Positions 3,165 through 63,223 of a stretch of DNA of 64,000 bases are shown here, in pieces. This DNA is from Gymnopilus junonius. Taxonomy: Eukaryota; Basidiomycota; Agaricomycetes; Agaricales; Galerinaceae. How positions within the stretch are numbered: the stretch's first letter is position 1; each line of letters begins with the position of its first letter. The notes beneath the pieces are model-generated. The model searched no databases. It worked only from the letters and a program-made list of their open reading frames with translations, and was not told the origin of the DNA. The translations under genes were made by a program, and so were the position numbers. The stretch is from positions 1-64,000 of the forward strand of contig JADNYJ010000164.1 in NCBI GenBank assembly GCA_015501075.1. The letters are read 5' to 3'.

Positions 3165-3742
3165 CAGGTCGCCACGACGTACTTCGAAAATCTGCCAGAA
3201 GGCGTAAATCAACCCTCAGCTGCTGCTTCGAAAGAGCCATCATCAAGCTCTTCTACTCTTGCAACTTCTTCAACTTCTTCAGAAAAGTGGCTTGCCGGCA
3301 TCCTTGATTTCAACTTTGTTGAGACTGACAAGCCTGCTACTGCTAGTGCCATGCCCAAGGAGTTATTTCAAGATGAGGTGAAGCAATATTTGAGATTTGA
3401 GGGAGGCCGAGGAGACCTGATGGATCCTCTCACTTGGTGGAAGGTACGTCTATAGCTCATTAATCATGTTTTATGACCAAACTCATCTTATTGCAGGTCC
3501 ATGGCACTGCCTTTCCCACTATCGCAAGAATGGCTCATGACTTTCTTGCAATCCCTGCCACCAGTGTCTCCATAGAACATACCTTCTCCAAGTCTCACCA
3601 TATTTGCAGTGACTTACATGGGTCTCAGAAAGCTGAGACGGTATGTAAGGCTTTGCTATCGAAGGTATGGATCCGCTGCGGCCTATTTGATGTAAATGAG
3701 CCCATGAAGCACAAACGGAAACACAGAGAAATCGACCCTTAG
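3165..3742 (+). pseudogene. hAT-superfamily transposase, C-terminal dimerization part
   Basis: There are two exons: 3165-3443 and 3497-3742, with a 53-nt GT...TTGCAG intron at 3444-3496. Splicing joins WWK to VHG. The joined stretch (DPLTWWK, then HDFLAIPATSVSIEHTFSK) matches the hAT dimerization region, in which LxIPATSxxxERxFS is the hallmark; here the usual Glu-Arg is EH. The protein ends at a TAG at 3740-3742. The N-terminal zinc finger and RNase H-like core are missing, and the chromovirus LTR ends only about 90 bp upstream. The LTR element may have landed in this transposon. Confidence 0.8.
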
Positions 3743-12194: not shown

Positions 12195-13369
12195 GTTATC
12201 TATTATGATTGGCTTGCTGACTCGGCAATGACTTCTCATGTCATGAATCAACATGATGCATTTATTACATACAAGCCCCTGAAGAACACAGTAGTTCAAG
12301 GCATAGGAGACTTGACTACGTGCACTGTAGGGAAAGGAACTGTTGAGTTAGAATCAGCAGTCAATGGACATAAATATATTGTGAGGATTGAAGATGTCCT
12401 TCACATCCCTAATAATCACAACAATCTTATCTCACTTGGCAGATGGGATGCTGGCAGCAGCCGTTATCTTGGTGGGAATGGGGTATTATCCCTGCTTACC
12501 AAGGATGGCCAGCTGATTGCAAAGGGAACAAAAATAGATAATCATTTATATCACATGGTGGTGTGCATGTGTAAACCCATGCAACAACAAAATAATACAC
12601 ATGCATCTACAGAATGAGTAAATAATGCCATAGAGGTGGCACAGAGCTGGGAGGTATGGCATAGATGTTTTGGCCACATAGGATACAGTGGATTGCAGCA
12701 TATGATGCAAGGTCAGCTGGTTGATGGTTTCCATGTGGATGATAGAATGCTGAAGCTGGACTGCCAAGCTTGTATGGAATCAAAGCAATTTATAGTTCCA
12801 TTTCCGAAGAAGGTGCAGCAGCATGCAACAATGCCCAGAGAGCTGACCCATATCAATCTCTGGGGCAAGTGCCAGACAGCATCAATCCATGGCAATCAAT
12901 ATTACATTAGCTTTGTGGATGATCATGCAAGGCACATACATGTGCACTTTCTAAAATTAAAGTCAGATGTGGCACAAAATATTAAAGACTACATTATGAG
13001 ATTAAGGGTCAAAGGCATGCAACCCTGTGCTATTTGTATAGATGGTGGGGGAGAATTTATTAATACAGATCTTAAAGATTGGTGCAGAACTCAAGGAATA
13101 GACCTTGAGCAGACAGCACCTTATTCCCCCTTGCAGAATGGCATTGCGGAACATATGAACCACATGCTCATGGAATTAGCACATGTGATGTTGAATATGC
13201 AGCACATCCCGGAATTCCTTTGGGAATTAGCTGTGGTGCATGCAGTGTACTTACACAATCGAACCCATATAAAGGCTCTCCCAAACAAGACTCCGTTCGA
13301 GGTGTGGACATGGCAATGGCCAGATGTTTCTCATCTCTGGGAGTTTGGGGTGCCTGTATGGATACTCAA

Positions 13370-14328
13370 TAGGGTTGGGTAAAAAACCTCCTGGGGGGTT
13401 ACTTACCAGTAAGTTACCCCCAACCAGTTGAGGGGGCTGGTAATTTACCTGTAATTTACCTGTCATGTGATTATTTTTGGCCCAATCTCAATTTTTTCTT
13501 TGCCTGCAGCACTCGGGATTCTCGCTAGCATCCTCACCCTCAGCTTCAAGTCTTGTGGCAGAAGTATACGTGGGATCGTTTGGCCCTTTGTTGAGCCAAG
13601 AGTCATCTTCGTCTTTGTCATCCAAAATTTTCTCGGTCTCAGTCTCTGGTGTAGGTGAGAGATAGAATATCCTTGCTGTCAGCAAGGGCATTGTCCCTTC
13701 TTTCATGTAGTTCCATGATGTCTATAGTGGTAGGCATAGCCAATGACTGGAGGAATGCTACTTGGTCTTCTTTTTCAACCAGGCTTGCTGTTTTTGAAAA
13801 TAGTTTGTCATCAAAAAGGCTGAGTAAATTTGGTGCATTCTTCTCTGAGGGAACGGAGAATTTTGACAAGGCCAGAATGTTAAGGCTATCTTGCAGGAGC
13901 AGGACCTGGAATATGTTGGGAGGTATAGCCATAGAGGGACTCATTTTTGCTTCAAGCAGTGTTGATGATAAAGTTGATAAAAATCGGAATATCTCTTGCA
14001 GCCCAGATTTCACCACTGACAAGAGAGCCTCTGATTATCAGTTAATACCCCTCCTGTGTGGCAGTTGCCCAATTTTTGTATCAAGAAGTGTGAATACATG
14101 CACTTATTATCCTATAATCCTTTCTCATCTAAGTGCTTGAGCCCCTCAGCCTACAGCAGTTGGATATCTGACCTGGCGAGGTATACCTCCCAGAGAAGCA
14201 TGTGACCCAGGTAAATTACCACTCAAAACCTTTACCCCTCTGGCAAGGTAAATTACCAGTAAATTACCAGTTATTTACCAGTTATTTACATACTGGTAAA
14301 AAACCAAGACATTTTTTACCCAACCCTA
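13370..14328. mobile_element. hAT-like element inserted in the copia integrase
   Basis: The 17-bp terminal inverted repeats are TAGGGTTGGGTAAAAAA and its complement. The 8-bp direct repeat ATACTCAA (13362-13369 and 14329-14336) fits nTnnnnAn. Tandem subterminal motifs (TTACCAGTAA, TAATTTACCTG, AAATTACCAGT) near both ends resemble transposase-binding arrays. A minus-strand coding-like stretch (14022 to about 13640, then 13706-13488 in another frame) includes LLSLFDDKLFSKTASLVEKE; I do not recognise it and it is too short for a transposase. Confidence 0.88.
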
Positions 14329-15894: not shown

Positions 15895-17314
15895 TAGCTA
15901 ATAAATGGGTACTCACAAAGAAGTATAATAAATTAGGGGAACTAATTAAGTACAAAGCAAGACTAGTGGCTAAAGGGTGCGCACAGAGACCCAGACAAGA
16001 CTACAATGACACATTCTCTGCAGTTGTGCACTTAGAGATGATCTGCGCAATATTAGTACTCATTCCTGTAATGAAGTTTAAAATTCAGCAGTTGGATGTA
16101 AAGGGTGCTTACCTTAATGGAATACTGAAGGAGTGGGTCATTATGTGCCAGCCCAAAGGTTTCAGTGATAGCACTGATAGAGTTTGCTGATTGATTAAAA
16201 CCATTTATAGTTTGAAGCAGTCAGGCTGAGAGTGGAACCACAAGCTAGATTGCAGATTAAAGAATATAGGCTTTCAAGCACTATGGAGTGATCCATGTGC
16301 CTATGTCAGGGGGAGCAGTCATACTAATGACTTGGAAATTATCACAGTCTCGGTCAATGATCTATTAGTGTTCACCCTCTCTGATGAGTGCATGAAGAAG
16401 CTTAAAAGTGAATTGAATTCTATATTGGACCTTACAGATCTTGGGGAACCAACAAAGATAGTTGGTATTGAGATTACTCAAACCCTGGACTCCATTACCA
16501 TCTCACAAAGGCAATATATTGAAACTATTTTACACCATGAGGGTATGGAGAAGTGTAATCCAGTTTCTACACCATTGGATCCAAATATAGTGCTCAAACC
16601 AAACCCTGAAGGATCAGACAGAAATAAAAGCAATTCTTATGCATCATTAATTGGTTCCCTTCAATACCTGGCAACTGCCACAAGGCCCGATATAGCTTAC
16701 ACCATAAATAGATTGGCTGCCTGTACAGCAAATCTGAGCATGGCTCATTATATGGCAGCTAAGAGGGTCCTCAGATACTTAGCTGGGACCAAGAATTATG
16801 GTATCACTTATACAACTAAACCTCATGAATTTCAGGGGAACAATCTAGCCTTTGGGTACTCAGACACCAGCTTTGCAAATGCCGATGATAGAAAATCTAT
16901 TTCTGGGTATGTGTTCCTATCTCACAGAGGAGCAATTATGTGGGGATCAAAGAAGCAGTCCATGATTGCGCTTTCCTCCACAGAAGCTGAATATGTGGCA
17001 TTATCTGAAGCATCTAGGAAAGCCATGTGGCTCTGCACATTATATGAAGAATTAGGTTTTGAGCAGAAAGAACTAACTCTTGTTCTGGGAGATAATGACA
17101 GTTCTATTGCTATGGCTAAAAATCCCCAGTTTCATAAGAGGGGTAAACACATAGATATAAGATGGCATTGGGTTAGAGAGAGAGTCAAAGAAGAATCAGT
17201 GTGTATAAAGGACTGCTGAGATCCTCAACAAATGGCAGACATATTTACTAAGCCTTTACAGAGGCCCAAGTTCATTTGGCATATTGCCGAACTCAGATTA
17301 TTGGACTCCTCAGC

Positions 17315-29945: not shown

Positions 29946-32070
29946 CTAATATGAGTCGTCAGACTGCACTCCTTTGACGATGTTCTCTAACGCGACCATG
30001 ACACGCGTACGCGCCGCGGCACCCTCTGCTGAGTCGCCTCCCATGAGCAAGCCGTTTTCGTAACCGGTAGTTATGCCCTGGTGAATCAGCACGAGCATCT
30101 TGACCCATTGCTGACCCCATATATCCTTGGCCTGCAGGCCCATAACGTCAAGAGCAGCTAAACAGATCATGGACACGTCAGAAAAAAGACTGCGAAAGAA
30201 ATGCAGAAAACCGTACTATATATCAGGTCAGGAGCAAGGGCCGCTTTGAGGAGTTCGGGATCGTTCAGCATTCTTGCAAACCAGGCCCAATACTTTGAAA
30301 CCCGGAAAGGACTGTCCAGTGGCTTGTTCATGGGGCGTATCTTCAATATCTGGAAATAAACCCTCATGATGGCAGATATGCGATTCGAATGGTCTTCATT
30401 GGATTCAAGCCCTTCGCCACCGGCAGTGGTTTTCCTCCAACCTGAGATCTTGGCAAATTCCTCGCGAGAGGACCAGGGCTGTCCGGTCACATCTTCCTTG
30501 GGAAGAACGATAGGAATCGCCCAGCCGCCGCACCGCTGGACCAGTTTGATAAAGAAAATGGCGGGGAAGGTGTCCAAGGCGTCGAGCAGGTTGAAAGCTA
30601 CCTGCGCAAGTGGACCAGCGCTGACTTTCTTGGCGATGACCTCTGTTTCAGCTTGTAAGATGATTGTTTTGGCGAGGGAAGAGCATAGGGAGATGTAGAC
30701 AGCGGTATGATGAGGTGGCCCTCTTGAAGGTCTGAGGATCTCGACTATTTGCTGAGACTGAAGAAATAGGTAAGAACTCGTTTCCAACCAATGAAGCCTA
30801 CTTACGATCTGTGCAATGGACTGTGCGTCATTCGTCAATTGTCCGATCTTTGGAACAATTTGTCTCGTAGTCGACCCCATTCAGATTTCAAGTCTTTCTG
30901 GGATTTCACAGCTTGCATGGCCCTGATTTTAGCGACTGAAGTAAAAGATGATAAAATCAGAGGATATTCAGATGATATCGACAAAGCACCTACAAGCAAA
31001 TCCGCTCGAGCCGACCTCCATTCCTCACTGCTGGTCACAAACTGAAGCTTCTCTCTCAGCTGTGTCTCCTCCGCTCTCGATGTTTCCTATCCTCCTCCAG
31101 CTTTATCCTCTTTTCTGCCTCCTCCTTCTCTTGCTGCGCCTTTTCTTCCTCAGCTTTCTTCCTTTCCTCCTCAGCTTTCTTTCGCGCAGCCTCCTCCTGT
31201 TGCTTCTTTTCCTCTTCAAGACGTCGCTTGAGTTCAGCTTCTTCCTCTTCCGTTCTTCTTCCTCCTTAGCCCGTCTTTCCTCTTCCAGTTCTTTGCGACC
31301 TTGTCTTCTTCCATCTTAATGACGGCCTCGATCCGTTCCCACAATTGCCGATTGCGAGTGGCCCATTCGTCTTTCATCTTCTTCTCCGATTCCAGAAGCA
31401 GCAGCCGTCGGCGTTCTACACCTGCTTGCACCTCTGCAGCATATTTGCCAAACTGAGCTGCGCGTCTCTTCTCTTCTTCAGCACGTAACTGCTCTTGACG
31501 AGCATGCAATTGAGCCTGTGTCGTTGAAAATTCTTTACGAGCGTTCTCTGCGACTTGGTAAGTACACGATAAACAATTGAGGCAGGTCGGCTTACAAAAG
31601 CCTCTTTGCGAGTCGTCCGCTCCCATTCTTCATAGGGTCGTGATATCGCTACGAAGACGTATTGATGCCACTGTCTCTTCTATTTCGCGTTCTTCTAGAG
31701 GCGTTCGTGTGATGTGTCGTGGTCGTCTAAAGCGGTGGCTTGTTCAGACCTGAAGTACTTTAAGAAACAAAAGAGACGTACATAGATATTTTATTCAAGT
31801 CGTTGACCAAGTCGTACGTGGACCCATTTGGTGAGGAAGTACTTGCTATAGACACCGCATCGTAGCCCGAGTCTGAGTTGAAACTAGACTCTAGTTCAGA
31901 GTAGTATTCGTCCGAGTCAGAATCGTCGGGCACGCCAAACGTTGAAGAGTTTCTGGCTCTCCTTGTAGAAATAAAAGAAGAGTTAGAAATAGAAAGAAAG
32001 GAATATAAAATAATTCAACGCACCCTCTGACTGGAGATGGTGACGGTGATCTCGGAGCGCTAAATCGCAT
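29946..32070 (-). CDS. GLE1: mRNA export factor / nucleoporin Gle1 (frame interrupted)
   Basis: Gle1 with IP6 activates the DEAD-box helicase Dbp5 at the cytoplasmic face of the nuclear pore. The N-terminus MRFSAPRSPSPSPVR (32070-32024) splices to an acidic segment and then PRHITRTPLEERE. A long charged coiled coil follows (ARKEFSTTQAQLHARQEQL, RRRLLLLESEKKMKDEW, EEEKKQQEEAARKK). The Gle1 domain covers QLTNDAQSIAQI to the end (RPSRGPPHHTAVYISLCSS, FIKLVQRCGGWAIPIV, KYWAWFARMLNDPEL, then QGITTGYENGLLMGGD), stopping at TAG 29946-29948. At least four apparent one-base shifts occur (near 31640, 31250, 31085 and 30875). Most are repaired by one added base next to a short homopolymer. Confidence 0.88.
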
Positions 32071-34812: not shown

Positions 34813-37065
<2,253 letters not shown>

Positions 37066-41953: not shown

Positions 41954-42528
41954 ATGCGTTTCTCTACTCTGAGTCTTACCGTCTTGGCAGTCGTTGCCTC
42001 CACATCTGCTCTCGTAGTCGACACTCGCGGCAACGAAGGCTATGGCAAGGGTAATGGGTATGGCGGCGGCGGCAGCTATGGTCACGGCGGCGGCTATGGT
42101 GTCGATAAGCGCGGTGACGGCTATGGCGGTCATGGTTATGGTGGTGGCGGTTATGGCAATCACGGCAAGCGCGGTGGTGGCGATGGTTATGGACGCGGTT
42201 CTGGTTATGGCCACGATGGCGGTCACGGCTACGGCAACGACCACGGCTACAACAAGCGCGGCGACGGAGGCGACGGCAATGGTTATGGTCACGGCAACGG
42301 CGGCCACAATGGCGGCTACGGTCATGGTAATGGCCATGGACACAGCGGGGCTACGGTCATGGTAATGGCCATGGACACAACGGGGGCTACGGAGACCACG
42401 ACAAGAGAGGTGATGGAGGCGACGGTGGATATAGCCATGGCTATGGCGGAGGTCATGATGGCAATGGTCACGGTTATGGAGGAGGTTCCGGTCATGGATA
42501 CGGAAGCGGCGACAACAAGAAGGATTGA
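41954..42528 (+). CDS. Secreted Gly/His-rich Kex2-processed repeat protein
   Basis: Single exon. The signal peptide is MRFSTLSLTVLAVVASTSA. The mature chain is almost only Gly, Tyr, His, Asn, Asp and Lys. It is cut into units by Lys-Arg sites followed by Gly (VDKRG, HGKRG, YNKRG, HDKRG), the layout of Kex2-processed repeat proteins (KEPs). Units contain runs such as GYGHGNGHGH. In the raw sequence a one-base loss in a G run (42347-42350; the sister repeat has five Gs) shifts the frame. With it repaired the ORF ends GSGDNKKD at TGA 42526-42528. Peptides with many His residues could bind metal or act as wall or signal peptides; neither is shown. Confidence 0.82.
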
Positions 42529-48819: not shown

Positions 48820-50292
48820 TCAAACAAAAACAAAACTCGTCCGATTCGCAACTTCAGTATTCCTGGCTACCAGGGTCAAATTGTGACCACCATCGACCCT
48901 TCTGAACATAGCCACTCCACCGTCCAAGTTGGCTCCAGCAATCAGGTACTCATCTCCTCCATCATCCACGCGGCCAAGAGTCATGCTCCTGATTTGCCTC
49001 AGCCCAGTGAAGACTTGCGTTTGGAGTATCAAGTCACCGGATACCTGAGCCTGAGCAGTTGGGCCAACGGGTTGGGGTGTATCGTCCTCTCGGATCTGCC
49101 ATTGTCGTGCATGGGCCCGAAGAATCGGAGACGACGAAGCCTGTGCTGATGGCGTAGCTCCTGTTGTCGTTGACCCGTAGAATTCATATCCATCGTGATG
49201 TTCTTGACAAATTCAAAGATAGCGATCGAGTCCCCGCGAGGGTCAAAGTTGGGTCCGGTATTCCGATTGCTGACATAAATAAGAGAATCGGGGAATTTCT
49301 GAGTAGGCTTTGAGATGAGGATCTCAGCGCCGGCAAAGGAGCTCTTGCTCTTGAAGTCTTCGGGTATGATGGAGACGTTCGCGATGAGGGGTAGTGTAGT
49401 TCCGTTGGGAGCTTCAGGAATATGTTGGGCGGTCAATGTGGACGTGAGTTCGTTGACCACAAATAGAATGCCATCTGAATGGGTGATAGATTAGAAAAGG
49501 TTTTTCAAGGCGGAATGATTTAGACGACATACCGTGAATGGCCATGCGTCGTGGTCCGTTACCAGGAACAACGTCGATTTGGCCTTGCACTTTGAAATGT
49601 CCAGCAGCTCCGTCATGCGCAAGGCGCCAAATTTTATCAGCACCCTAAGTGTGAAGGAAGATATCTCAGTTGTGTTTCCGAAGGGGCGAATGGGAAATAC
49701 GTACAAAATCAGAGACGAGAACTTCCTCCTTGTGTTCTAACGACATATGGGGGTTAGAAGGACCGCCGTTCACAGGAAATTCAACAACAGGCGAGTCCGT
49801 CTGGAAATGCAAAGGATCATTTGGCATGGTCGCGACAAGGGAGCAGTTTGGTGAGCCAAACTAGACACGAATTATTAGAGCCTGGTACGATCAGAAGAAG
49901 GTGGACGTAAAGACTCACATTCATGGCTGTAACCTCGCCTGTGGAAAGAGGGTTCGTAAAAGTAGGTCCAGCACCGCGGCTGGTGACGGTGTCAGCCAAG
50001 GTGAGGCCACCATCTGGGTTCATTAGGAACGATTGTAGACTCCCGACAGGGTAATTTTCATTCACGGCACTGTAAGGCGAAAGAACATCACTGGTCAGCC
50101 TTGTTCAAACATATTGGATCCATAAATTGACGCACTAGAGAACACTAATATTCTGAGGATGAGAGGCTATCCAAGAAGGGTTGTCCCCGGTTGTAGTCTG
50201 CTTCGTAAGAGAGAGCGCGGAAGTATGGAATTGAAGACATAGGTGGCGACGAAAGTGGAAAAGCCACCTGCAAGGATCGTGAAGTTGACCAT
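48820..50292 (-). CDS. Lactonase-family seven-bladed beta-propeller protein
   Basis: The start MVNFTILAGGFSTFVATYVF at 50292 and the later blades fit the 6-phosphogluconolactonase / carboxy-muconate cyclase-like (Lactonase, PF10282) family. Landmarks are NPSWIASHPQNISVL, AVNENYPVGSLQSF, GGPSNPHMSLEHKEEVLVSD, DKIWRLAHDG, PDSLIYVSNRN and DEYLIAGANLDGGVAMFRR. Introns are short; one joins VL-Y to AVNENY across a GTGCGT...ACAG intron. Two one-base losses (near 50220, and near 49175 in a G run) interrupt the frame. No signal peptide or anchor is evident. The substrate is not predictable. Confidence 0.85.
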
Positions 50293-50731: not shown

Positions 50732-53036
50732 TTACCAAGAAAGAGGCGAGGCCTAAAAGAAGAGACGCATTAGACGAAGGCCGAAATAGTCAAGAGAAAA
50801 AAACATACAGTCTTGTCGCAGCGGCGCTCCATGATTTGCTTGACCTTCTCGTACTCGTTGCCGTGATCGCAGTGCTGCTGGAAGCATTGCTTGTTATCGT
50901 TGAGCCATTGCTGATCGGCGCAGAGGCAATTCCAGTCGGACGGCTTGCACTCGGTGACGGTTCCGGAGCAATGCTGAGAGCAGTCTATGAAGGCAAGAAG
51001 GTCAGCAAAAACGTAAAAATAAATAACAAAACTAGGAAAGACATACGAGGCCAAGTATTGGAGTGCGTGGAAGACTCGCTGGGTGCGTTGGCACCAGTGC
51101 GACCATTAGGTCCGCTAGTGTTGTAGGGAGAAGAGCGACTACCGGTAGGAGTAGCGGTGACATTGAATGGAGAACCAGAAGAGTTAGTGCCACTAGGGAT
51201 AGGAGAGCCGGTGATGTTGCCTGCCCGTCGACTGTAAGCGCGAAGGGGCTCGGAACGAGGACCATAAGAACCATAGCCCTTGCCCCTGCCATAGCCGCGC
51301 TTGTGAACGTCGCCGTACACGCCGTTATCGTGCTTCTCCTGTCCGTAGCCGTCGTTCTTGCGGGAGTGGTCGTCATCGTCGTGAATGTGGATGTGAGCAT
51401 GGATGTTGTCATTGGAGTCAGAACGATGTTGATCCTTGTCGTGGTCATCCTTGCCATAGCCGTCCTTGTTATTGCCATCCTTGCCGTAGCCATCCTGGCC
51501 ATCGTCATCCTTGCCATAGCCGTCCTTGTTATTGCCATCCTTGCCGTAGCCATCCTGGCCATCCTGGCCATCGTCTCCGCGCTTGTGAACGTCGCCGTAC
51601 ACGCCGTTATCGTGCTTCTCCTGTCCGTAGCCGTCGTTCTTGCGGGAGTGGTCGTCATCGTCGTGAATGTGGATGTGAGCATGGATGTTGTCATTGGAGT
51701 CAGAACGATGTTGATCCTTGTCGTGGTCATCCTTGCCATAGCCGTCCTTGTTATTGCCATCCTTGCCGTAGCCATCCTTGCCATAGCCGTCCTTGTTATT
51801 GCCATCCTTGCCGTAGCCATCCTGGCCATCCTGGCCATCGTCATCCTTGCCATAGCCGTCCTTGTTATTGCCATCCTTGCCGTAGCCATCCTGGTCATCC
51901 TGGGCATCGTCTCCGCGCTTGTGAACGTCGCTGTACCCGCCGTTGTCGTGCTTATCCTGTCCGTAGCCGTGGTTCTTGCGGGAGTGGTCACCATTGTCGT
52001 GGATGTGGATGTGAGCGTGGATGTTGTCGTTGGAGTTAGAACGATGGTGATCCTTGTCCTTGCCATAACCGTCCTTGCCATAGCCACTCTTGTTGTCATC
52101 ATCCTTCTTGCCGTAGCCATCCTTGCCGTAGCCATCCTCATCATCGTCTCCGCGCTTGTGGATGTCGCCGTACGCGCCGTTGTCGTGCTTCTCCTGTCCA
52201 TAGCCGTGGTTCTTGCGAGAGTGGTCGTCGTCGTGGATGTGGATGTGGGCATGGATGTTGTCATTAGAACGATGATGGTCCTTGTCGTGGTCGTCCTTGC
52301 CATAGCCGTCCTTGTTGCCGTCCTTGCCATAGCCTCCTTGTTGCCATCCTTGCCATAACCATCCTTGTTGTCGCCATTCTCGTTGCCGTCGTCGCCGCGC
52401 CTATGGACGTCGCTGTACCCGCCGTCGTGGAGCTTGTCCTCGTGGTCCTTGCGGGAGCGATCGTCGTCATGGATGTGGATGTGAGCGTGGATTTGTCATT
52501 AGAGTCAGCCGATAATGATCCTTGTCATTGTTGTCCTTGCCATCGCCGTCCTTGCCATAGCCGTCCTTGCCATCGCCATCCTTGCCATAGCCGTCATTGC
52601 CATCGCCGTCCTTGCCATAGCCGTCCTTGCCATCGCCGTCCTTGCCATCGCCGTCACCGCGCCTACGAACGTCACCGTAACCGCTGCCGTGGTGGTCCTT
52701 CTGACCATAGCCCTTTCCACGATGGTGATCCTTGCCATGGCTATAGCCCTTGCCATAACCCTTGCCATAGCTGTCACCGCGCTTGTGGACGCCGATATAC
52801 CCGTCGTTGCCGTCGTGCTTCTCGTCCTTTCCGTTGCCGTAGCCCTTGCGAGAGCGATCGTCGTCGTCGATGTGGGCGTGAGCGTGGATGTGGATGTTGT
52901 CGTTGGACTTCTGACCGTAGCCGGAGACGTCGTCGTGGCCGTACCCTGGGGCGTCGCCGCGGATCTCAAGAGTGAGAGCGGAGGCAGAAGCGATGGCGAC
53001 GGCGACGAGGCCGACGGAAACAGTGAAGAAACGCAT
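50732..53036 (-). CDS. Secreted Kex2-processed His/Asp-rich repeat precursor with C-terminal CFEM domain
   Basis: The ATG at 53036 gives a signal peptide (MRFFTVSVGLVAVAIASASA). Seven units follow, each ending in a dibasic site (VHKR, DVRRR, DVHRR, DIHKR, DVHKR three times). Five share the core NDNIHAHIHIHDDD-HSRK-GYGQEKHDNG and have a Gly/Lys/Asp spacer (GYGKDGNNKD). A variant core, NDNIHIHAHAHIDDDD, is in unit 1. After GYGRGKGYGSYG and a Ser/Thr/Gly/Asn linker with N-glycosylation sites, an intron (50985-51046) leads to a Cys domain. Its spacing is C-x3-C-x6-C-x6-C-x-C-x11-C-x4-C-x16-C, with Asp three residues before CLC, which fits CFEM. A last intron (50753-50808) gives the end ASPLSW. 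Three one-base losses (near 52492, 52509 and 52334) interrupt the raw frame. Confidence 0.83.
51300..52990 (-). repeat. Tandem repeat array coding the His/Asp-rich units
   Basis: Coding repeats of roughly 240-330 bp share nearly identical DNA in the two units nearest the C-terminus (about 51297-51610 and 51600-51910). Shorter GGCTATGGCAAGGAT-type repeats are nested inside. High identity of the terminal units implies recent expansion or gene conversion. Confidence 0.85.
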
Positions 53037-57443: not shown

Positions 57444-59361
57444 ATGTCGCCAGCTGAATTTCCGCTAGGAACATCGCGCGTCGTCCCAGGACGCTATCCA
57501 CCTCCTGGCATCGATCCTCATGCCGATGCCATTCGCGAACGTCGTGGCGCGCGAGGCATCACACCTCTTGACGCTAATCTTCTGCATGTACCGCCGATCG
57601 CTGGCGGGTTTAACTCCCTACTGGGTGCAGTCAGGACAAAAGGCAATCTCCCAGCCGATGTTCGTGAAGCCATAGTGAGTTAGTTTGTCTTCACAGTTGC
57701 TTTTGCTTGAACAAATCTACAGATTCTTCGGGTAGCAGCCATAAATCATGCTACTTTTGAGTGGATCCATCATGAGATCGTTGGTCGTAACGAAGGCCTC
57801 ACTACTGGCCAGCTTTACATTATCCGGGACACAGAAACACCTTTACCTCCCATTCAAAATGTTCTCAATCCTCTTCTCACAGCTGCCATCGGTTTCACGG
57901 ACCACAGCACTCGCAATGTACGCGTTCCGGCGGATGTTATCCAAGAGCTGAAAAAGCAAATTAAAGATTGGATCATTATCAAATACCCATCCTTGACAGC
58001 GGACGAAGTTACTGCCAAGACGGACGATCTATATGTCGAGAGTTCAATGGTTGTAGCCTCCTACAACATGGTCTCTCGCTTCTTACTTGCTACAGACGTG
58101 GCTGGAATCTCAGACGTCGAGGTTCCTTGGCCTGTGGATAAGAAAGAGGTAAGCACTTGAATCAAGTTTCCCGCATTGTAGATCTCGATCCATGGCTTGA
58201 TTCTCCTTAGGAATCAACATCTTGAATATAAACATAACATTGATTTTCAATTCTGCACTCCTTCTGAATCAAGTAAATTTACCATTTATTAACTCTCTTT
58301 TCCAGCACTTTGTGTCTGTGCCTTCCTTCCCGCCTGCGTCCACACCCTCTCATACAATTCATGCCGTGACGTTGACTACGTCCCCTTCGGCTCCTTGGCT
58401 GGTCTTTGCAAACTCCCTGCTTACAGATTGGGCAATGTGGAGTTATATTGTGCCTTACTTTCTGGACCTTGCTTCTTGTTCCAATGCCTCTGATAATGAT
58501 CACACTGAGCAAAAGGAAACATACAACATTTTATTGCATTCTCAACGCGGTCATGGAAAATCTACGCTTCCTCCTCCATCCGATGGACACGACCGCCTCG
58601 CAACCATTCCTCTGCTAGCCACTGACATTGCGAACTTACTTTCCGCTCTGTCCATTCCTACGCCCGTTCAATCCGTTATCGGTGTTTCCCAAGGCGGCGC
58701 AGCTGCACTCGCTTTCGCTGCTTTATATGGCGGCACCGATGAAAGTCCTGCAAAGACAAAGAGTGTAATAGCTTGCGATACTGGTCCTCGCACTCCAGCG
58801 GGTAATAAGGAAGCTTGGGAAGATAGGATAAGTCTTGTCTACGGCAGCCTTGTCCCTCCCAATTCGCCGGATATAAGTCTTCACTTTGCCAAGAAAATAG
58901 GAATGAGTAATCTCGCGGAAATCACTGTTCCGCGCTGGTTCCCTCCTGGTTCTATACTCAACAGCGGAGAGCGAGGAGGCGACAAACGGGCAAAATGGGT
59001 GGAAAAGATGATTAAGGATACCGACGTCGATGGATTTGTCCATGGTGCGAGGGCGCTTAGCGATTATAACCTCATCAACCCTTCCGATTTGGAGGCCAAT
59101 GAGAATGCGACTCCAGGGCTTTTCAACAGTCACGTTGGACGTGTTCTTCTGCTTGCTGGGAGCTTGGATGGAGGTGGGAAAGTGGCCAAGGGTCTTCAAG
59201 ACCTGCGCACTAAGTGGAATGAGAAACGCCTGAATGATTCACAAATATCACTTATGCACGAGGTTGAATATTTGGAGATAGAAAAATCCGGCCATCTGCC
59301 TATGATTGATTCTCCCGAGATCTTTTGCGAGAACGTGGGTCAGTGGTTGGGGAAAGTTTGA
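57444..59361 (+). CDS. Carboxymuconolactone decarboxylase-like domain fused to alpha/beta hydrolase
   Basis: Three exons (57444-57674, 57723-58148, 58306-59361) keep phase 0 and give 570 aa. The N-terminal ~200 residues resemble the CMD/AhpD-like fold: GGFNSLLGAVRTKGNLPADV, ILRVAAINHATFEWIHHE and GLTTGQLYIIRD, without a CxxC pair. The second half is an alpha/beta hydrolase: WLVFANSLLTDWAMW, HGKSTLPP, nucleophile elbow GVSQGG, and the His of KSGHLPMIDSP. A likely acid is the Asp of LLAGSLDGG. This is the pair of activities of the beta-ketoadipate pathway. An alternative two-gene reading (stop at GTAAGCACTTGA, second start 58222) is possible but less likely. Confidence 0.85.
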
Positions 59362-61541: not shown

Positions 61542-63223
61542 ATGTTCTCGGTTTTCTCAAGAGTTTCCGAGCCCACTGCTAGTACCTCGAGCGCCCCCGC
61601 TGATGCTGGGATGCAGGATGGTGCGGATCCTTCTGCCACAACCACCAAACCTCTGTATGTGTGCCTCCGGTGTGTATTTGTATTGGAGCTAACGTGCTGT
61701 ACAGTGACGTTGTGTTTCTGCAAGACACAACAGGCAGCCAAGGCCCTTATATACAATCAGCCCGAAAGGCCATTCGCGACATCTGTGACAAGATCGCCGC
61801 CTCCGGTGGCCTATCAAGGGACCTCATAAGATTTGGATTAATTGCCTTTCGAGATCATCCTCCTCAAGATACCTCTTATGTTACAAAATCATTTGGCTTT
61901 ACCTCAGATGTAGAGGTCATGCAAAAGAATCTTGCTTCACTCATTGCGTCTGGAGGGGGGGATGGCCCTGAAGCACAGACGGCTGCTTTGGCTGATGCAT
62001 TAAATTTGGAGTGGCAGGAAAATGCGATTAAGATGGCCATTCTTATCACTGATGCTCCTCCCCATGGTATTGGCGAGAATGGCGACGGTTTCACCGAATC
62101 CCCTGATCGTAAGTTGTTCCTCAATGCATTTTAAACGTCTCTGACCTACGAACCCACTGTAGAAAATGATCCACTCGATATAGCTCGACAGATGGCAGAA
62201 CGAGGAATTACTTTGGTAAAGTCTCGAATTTACTTATCAATCGTAGGAAGCTAACCTGATATCCATGTCAGTTTGTTATTGCCTGCGAGCCAACTCTCAG
62301 CAGGTATCGGGTATGTTGATGTCCAGATGTCAATTAATGTGCTCAACCCTGACATGGCACATCTATAGAACGCTGTTGATTTCTATAATGCCTTGGTCCA
62401 AATCGCGAGGTAAGGTTTGCTTGACGCGAAAATACGCTACATATATGTTGACTTTTCTATCTCAATTATAGCGGAAGGATGTTCCCACTTCTCATGGCTG
62501 ATAAACTGGGCGATTATATCGTCGGAACTGCCCTCGAGACAATCGAAACAGAGAAATTAATTGGCGAATTTGAACAAGTCATTGTAAGCGAAGTGTACGA
62601 CAACAACAACTCAATCGACGTTGTTACCGAGAATTTGCAAAAAAAAATGCAAGAAAGAGGGGCAAAAGTCAACACCATGAACATAGAAAATGTTTACAAT
62701 GAGACAGCAACTTCCAAGGCAAATGTAGCCATGTGGCAAGCCGCCAAGAGTATCCGATCTATTAGTGGAAGAACGCAAACAGTAAGTTACATTTCTGTTT
62801 AGTGTAATCGACAACAAACCACTTATCAATAACGGAACAGAGCTCTGTACCACGCATGCAGGCTGAATATATGGCGAGGGGGAGGAGAGAAGCAAGGGCG
62901 CCGGCCGTTAGTATGGCTCCTCAGGCATGGTCTCAAGCGCAGGTAAGTTTGCCGTGCTTCTTCTGCCAATCCGAATGCACACTGACTGGTTTTTTACTTG
63001 CCTTCAACAGGTACAGCGAGTAGTGCAACAATCTATGGCAAGAAACTCTGCTGTAACCCCAACAGGATATGTATCAAAATCGAGTGGGAAAGTCGTTTCC
63101 AACAGTTTCATCCCTGCTGGTCCCCCCCATCTTAATTATATTGTTTTAAAATATATCGAAGTGTACCCATATTCTCTGTCAATTTATGGTTTACCGGTCC
63201 TATTGATTGCACGCTGCAAATAA
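61542..63223 (+). CDS. von Willebrand factor A-domain protein
   Basis: Exon 1 ([17 protein letters not shown]) joins [20 protein letters not shown], the first vWA strand with its MIDAS D-x-T-x-S. Later blocks are [93 protein letters not shown] and [19 protein letters not shown]. The C-terminal region ([32 protein letters not shown]) is low in known motifs. Some fungal proteins of this type carry an alpha-kinase domain; none is visible here. Introns are short and frame-consistent. No signal peptide is present, so it is probably intracellular. The exact 3' exon is uncertain. Confidence 0.86.

Follow-up and report, generated by a model that had tools for sequence, protein, structure and literature searches.

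A candidate Kex2-type repeat precursor joined to a CFEM domain in Gymnopilus junonius

Background

Can a single fungal gene encode both a run of repeat units of the kind that Kex2 would cut into peptides and a CFEM domain, or is such a pairing an accident of annotation? The question is raised by a 64,000-nucleotide stretch of Gymnopilus junonius DNA (assembly GCA_015501075.1, contig JADNYJ010000164.1, positions 1 to 64,000 of the forward strand; this whole stretch is the window below), in which an earlier note placed a gene for a Kex2-processed repeat protein (KEP) fused to a CFEM domain. We find the architecture, repeat units plus CFEM in one predicted gene, to be well supported, and a hypothetical protein from Gymnopilus dilepis, CVT26_002985, shares it. 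The functions of KEPs are largely unknown (PMC9769878), and a KEP with a CFEM domain and a putative heme-ligand Asp would give a concrete biochemical handle on the role of the peptides, because direct assays exist for the binding of metal and of heme.

Results

Gene model. The gene runs from a minus-strand ATG at 53036 to a stop codon at 50734-50732. Its N-terminal start, MRFFTVSVGLVAVAIASASA, is hydrophobic and ends ASA (judged by eye). Both predicted introns have GT-AG ends, the cysteine exon sits between them, and the spliced C-terminal end, DKTASPLSW, resembles NRTITSLD of CVT26_002985. (With intron 2, 50753-50808 on the minus strand, retained, translation would finish on a short hydrophobic run, VCFFLLTISAFV, which may be an alternative C-terminus.) The earlier note was correct in its coordinates and exon model, and its seven units bounded by KR or RR are also what we count. 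Taken as a whole its observation is partly confirmed: the layout, the introns and the CFEM call stand, the number of units with His cores is corrected to six, the CFEM spacing agrees in most intervals, and the frame is broken as assembled.

The pairing in a second species. For the earlier note, absence of the pairing from all relatives would have pointed to an annotation accident. The pairing is not one: CVT26_002985 has the same layout in one predicted protein. This relative comes from a search in which the unbroken part of the gene (units 4-7 to the end) was compared with about 5.8 billion proteins, and only the 7985 candidates sharing most words with the query were scored. Nine of these reach an expectation value (E) of 0.01 or below, the best being CVT26_002985 at 1.1e-63 and the next standing at 1.7e-10; the other eight share GYGKD-like low-complexity stretches, and none of them carries a CFEM domain in the results table. 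A search with the tail of CVT26_002985 returned only that protein itself among 84 candidates, and no further relative with the pairing appeared in either scored set. CVT26_002985 (361 aa) resembles our gene in its nearly identical start, its KR/RR units, its alternating-His cores, its SRR-ended spacer, the SRR/AG junction (GPRSExLRAYSRRAG), the linker, and a CFEM domain that is 66% identical and has its cysteines spaced alike. It differs in having four KR/RR units plus the SRR spacer unit, as against seven, and two His cores, as against six; it is one unbroken predicted protein, for which no described function was found. Its linker has three N-glycosylation sequons, against four in the linker of our gene, and linker and CFEM domain together have five.

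That the CFEM exon is a separate gene, and the fusion spurious, is hardly credible. The CFEM domain does occupy its own exon, the splice joins are read from sequence, and CVT26_002985 may be a prediction unsupported by RNA; nevertheless, repeat frame, linker and CFEM are joined without a stop through a canonical-ended intron, the linker has neither a start nor a signal peptide of its own, and the same fusion with the same junction recurs in a second species. No second copy or allele of the gene was found in its own genome (58 Mb, 898 contigs), one of the searches skipping simple repeats. Besides this gene, CVT26_002985 finds there a weak place on contig C390 (E 0.08) and a second KEP-like gene (E 0.13). 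The latter lies in the window (41954-42528, plus strand); it is single-copy, Gly/Tyr/His-rich, with KR-ended units, a similar start, a single-base gap within a run of G, and no CFEM domain. The idea that this genome habitually fuses CFEM domains to such arrays was considered and rejected, on the evidence of seven further CFEM matches, two allele-like contig pairs among them. Neither a KR-unit array nor an HxHxH motif was seen by eye in about 1.5 kb upstream of six of these loci; the seventh (L008) is at a contig end, with no upstream sequence. In another of them (L005) there is an HxHxH about 1.2 kb downstream, in a different frame.

The CFEM domain. The Pfam model for CFEM (PF05730) matches the spliced tail at 36.1 bits and the unspliced tail at 33.1 bits, against a curated cut-off of 22 bits, which upholds the domain call made earlier; a score outside CFEM, named in the earlier note as a refutation, did not occur. 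The eight cysteines are spaced 3-6-6-1-11-4-16, identically in CVT26_002985. The eight cysteines and most of the intervals agree with the CFEM consensus; the exceptions are C2-C3, which is shorter, and, in this gene, a Ser as the residue after C1. The strict form of the consensus Cys pattern failed, and a relaxed form passed. A profile of five CFEM sequences (this gene, CVT26_002985 and three genes from the G. junonius genome) picks out Csa2 (4y7s) with an E of 1.7e-6 along the first 45 of 60 positions; in this alignment the Asp in C-x3-D-x2-C-L-C is in register with Csa2. The Asp of Csa2 coordinates the heme iron, and its D80A mutant is unable to bind heme (PMC7175094, PMC9635878). Judged by the Csa2 sequence alignment and these published descriptions, our Asp would correspond to Csa2 D80, in keeping with the earlier remark that the Asp before C-x-C is a heme ligand in characterised CFEM proteins. 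Since the spliced C-terminus has no hydrophobic tail, the module is probably soluble.

The repeat units. Runs of at least four alternating His occur in six of the seven units (1 and 3-7), and an Asp run lies directly behind in five of these six; the five His-x-His-x-His plus Asp-run cores reported before are there, and the alternating-His core itself extends to a sixth unit. Each of the eight cores found (six here, two in CVT26_002985) has at least four alternating His; A, I or V, and once D, stand in between. Five such runs are seen in the joined frame-A pieces with the unit 3 core left out, a number that none of 10000 residue shuffles reached (mean 0.05, maximum 2). The units range from 40 to 112 residues; by composition they are rich in G, Y and D, acidic, hydrophilic and highly charged, and in most units of this gene and of CVT26_002985 the motif GY(G/S)DVHKRGD flanks the KR.

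Discussion

We read the gene, tentatively and with somewhat less than an even chance of being right, as encoding a repeat precursor that is secreted, is processed by Kex2 and has a CFEM module at its C-terminus. The earlier interpretation is partly supported: its core, the joining of a KEP-type precursor and a CFEM domain, is retained here on the strength of the PF05730 match and CVT26_002985. Secretion, Kex2 cleavage and heme binding we infer from sequence features; metal binding by the peptides, like the biological purpose, is a guess from composition. The precursor chain would enter the secretory pathway, Kex2-type proteases would cut after KR/RR, and a carboxypeptidase would trim the basic ends, with release of several acidic, disordered His/Asp/Gly-Tyr peptides; a cut at SRR/AG would free a glycosylated CFEM protein lacking a membrane anchor. 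The alternating-His strand and Asp run of the peptides might then bind a divalent metal and the CFEM domain ferric heme through its Asp, and one gene would supply extracellular binders of metal and of heme in a set proportion. A Kex2-type P-domain is present in the same genome (seven exon matches on three contigs), KEPs of agarics yield peptides by processing in vivo (PMC9769878), and a study of arbuscular fungi mentions the proposal that His-rich motifs in secreted proteins bind metal (PMC5293756). The fuller proposal, a single-gene metallophore polyprotein whose products, in fixed ratio, are several ribosomal peptides that chelate metal and a soluble protein that binds heme, for combined extracellular capture, we place on the doubtful side. 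If true, it would give fungi a route to ribosomal metal chelators and put a CFEM domain on a peptide-releasing precursor in mushrooms.

Several points weigh against the Kex2-processed CFEM precursor. The C2-C3 interval is 6 residues, below the CFEM consensus of 8-12. The structural model of the CFEM domain has a mean predicted local distance difference test (pLDDT) score of 70 and helices only, too poor to judge a heme pocket, and fold searches with this model gave no match at E 0.001. Unit 2 has no His core, nor do two of the KR/RR units of CVT26_002985, which has four. A scan of 900 bp of promoter lends metal control no support, with 0 SreA, HapX and zinc elements; HGATAR is seen twice (3.2 expected), and copper-type elements twice (0.8 expected), a count reached by 87 of the 500 shuffles. 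Finally, alignment with sibling units places three single-base gaps in units 3-4, which break the frame.

The assembled frame is open from 53036 to about 52470, passes to another frame (open reading frame (ORF) from 52495), and then returns to the first (ORF 52400-50985). The earlier gene model holds, these three breaks having gone unmentioned in it. Short introns as the source of the frame changes were set aside, the changes being single-base gaps against sibling units. The assembly carries residual indel errors. Seven contig pairs of the same genome were compared for gap openings against substitutions, and gap openings are in excess in three near-identical ones (C288/C546, 7:3; C29/C113, 9:1; C445/C797, 3:2); an HSP70 exon on contig C442 changes frame across about one base. 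Because this gap excess and frame switch show residual indel errors, assembly error is the likelier origin of the three gaps, rather than decay. Substitutions exceed gap openings in three other pairs (C59/C681, 116 to 8; C734/C716, 11 to 1; the diverged pair C104/C190), and one pair, C682/C113, is identical. A pseudogene decaying in this species, with genuine frame breaks, would find support in these four pairs without an excess of gap openings, in the three gaps within one gene and the further one in the neighbouring KEP-like gene, and in a GMC oxidoreductase on the same contig with no clear frameshift (by eye). Against them, besides the indel errors just described, stand the net effect of the three gaps, which brings the frame back, and the other-frame stretch, which retains clean unit coding; we hold decay to be distinctly improbable.

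Other roles could be served by the same architecture. Gly-Tyr-rich peptides might coat hyphae or fruiting bodies as surface material, like the attachment role of Ustilago Rep1 peptides, with the CFEM domain associated with the wall and not a hemophore. The units are indeed rich in G, Y and D, and yeast has a CFEM protein, CCW14, that serves its cell wall (PMC4530338), but the units are highly charged and hydrophilic, and a coat needs neither His cores nor a heme-type Asp, yet both are conserved; we rate such a role as somewhat unlikely. Also unlikely is a biotic role, in which the peptides would act against microbial competitors or animals, for instance by depriving them of metal or as antimicrobials of the His-rich type. 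There are points on both sides: distribution in the protein searches is narrow, and six Coprinopsis cinerea KEP knockouts had no phenotype in axenic culture, their authors suggesting roles towards the biotic environment (PMC9769878), whereas these peptides would be acidic, unlike most membrane-active peptides. There is, lastly, little reason to expect that no peptides are released at all, the precursor remaining whole or being cut only at SRR/AG and the repeats forming a scaffold or disposable pro-region for the CFEM domain. The units are of very uneven length (40 to 112 residues), and their number differs between the two species, but in both proteins every unit still ends in KR/RR, most with the GY(G/S)DVHKRGD flank, and Kex2-type P-domains are present in the genome. 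A dikaritin (ustiloxin-type) cluster for a ribosomally synthesised and post-translationally modified peptide was set aside, since a partial Pfam scan covering 30 chosen ORFs of the window, out of 144 of at least 90 aa, found no DUF3328 (UstYa).

Features and neighbourhood

Table 1. Features of the gene, with positions in the window
Feature	Position	Strand	Remarks
Whole KEP-CFEM gene	50732..53036	minus	three exons, 53036-51047, 50984-50809, 50752-50732; relative CVT26_002985 with same layout
TATAAA	53147..53152	minus	116 nt upstream of ATG; consensus match only
Signal-peptide-like start, 20 aa	52977..53036	minus	judged by eye; nearly identical in Gymnopilus dilepis CVT26_002985
Unit 1	52779..52958	minus	HIHAHAH core with DDDD, KR end
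Unit 2	52659..52778	minus	no alternating-His core, RR end
Unit 3	52397..52658	minus	HAHIHIH core with DDD, RR end; two single-base gaps in core (about 52487-52515)
Unit 4	52152..52396	minus	HAHIHIH core with DDD, KR end; one single-base gap near 52340
Unit 5	51915..52151	minus	HAHIHIH core, no adjacent Asp run, KR end
Unit 6	51579..51914	minus	HAHIHIH core with DDDD, KR end
Unit 7	51297..51578	minus	HAHIHIH core with DDDD, KR end
Spacer, 24 aa, ends SRR	51225..51296	minus	junction GPRSExLRAYSRRAG common to CVT26_002985
Ser/Thr/Pro/Asn-rich linker, starts AG	51047..51224	minus	four N-glycosylation sequons
Intron 1	50985..51046	minus	62 nt, GTATGT...CATAG; sequence evidence only
CFEM exon, eight Cys	50809..50984	minus	Asp between C3 and C4 at 50937-50935
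Intron 2	50753..50808	minus	56 nt, GTATGT...TTTTAG; evidence as for intron 1

TATA-type matches number 3 in the 900 bp upstream, with 1.5 expected. The downstream neighbour on the same strand (49032-49490, minus) matches a 7-bladed lactonase family (PF10282, 30.6 bits). Elsewhere in the window are pieces of mobile elements, namely a chromodomain (970-1302), a hAT dimerisation region (3464-3739), a gag pre-integrase (12618-13379) and a Ty1/copia-type reverse transcriptase (16230-17216), all on the plus strand, and matches to the GLE1 (30170-30880, minus), GMC oxidoreductase (34905-35888, minus), alpha/beta hydrolase (58201-59358, plus) and VWA (61604-62131, plus) families.

Comparison with known systems

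With fungal KEPs the gene shares a signal-peptide-like start (by eye) and repeated units bounded by KR/RR, as in the definition of the class (PMC7329392); it differs by adding a folded C-terminal CFEM domain, and its units, at 40-112 aa, are long for a Dikarya KEP, 9-24 aa being the most frequent size class there (PMC6339444). With the Candida CFEM hemophores (Csa2, Rbt5, Pga7) it shares the eight-Cys CFEM domain and an Asp in the same place, and Csa2 is likewise soluble. In the descriptions consulted these hemophores have no Kex2 repeat array, and C2-C3 in Csa2 is 9 residues, as against 6 here.

Among 5.39 million papers, a set with most subscription journals lying outside it, three mention both CFEM and Kex2, and their passages make no link between the two; the term "CFEM" is absent from the main texts of three KEP papers. 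Within the literature searched, a gene that has the layout of a KEP and a profile-matched CFEM domain is undescribed, consistent with what the earlier note had supposed, and the same holds, for KEPs or CFEM proteins, of a combined system for metal and heme capture. The nearest precedent for a peptide plus a domain is the Coprinopsis cinerea protein 365456 (PMC9769878). There too one precursor gives a Kex2-cut peptide, identified by mass spectrometry, and a C-terminal domain; it differs in that the peptide is single, short and not repeated, the domain is a GH128 glycoside hydrolase, and its authors do not class it as a KEP.
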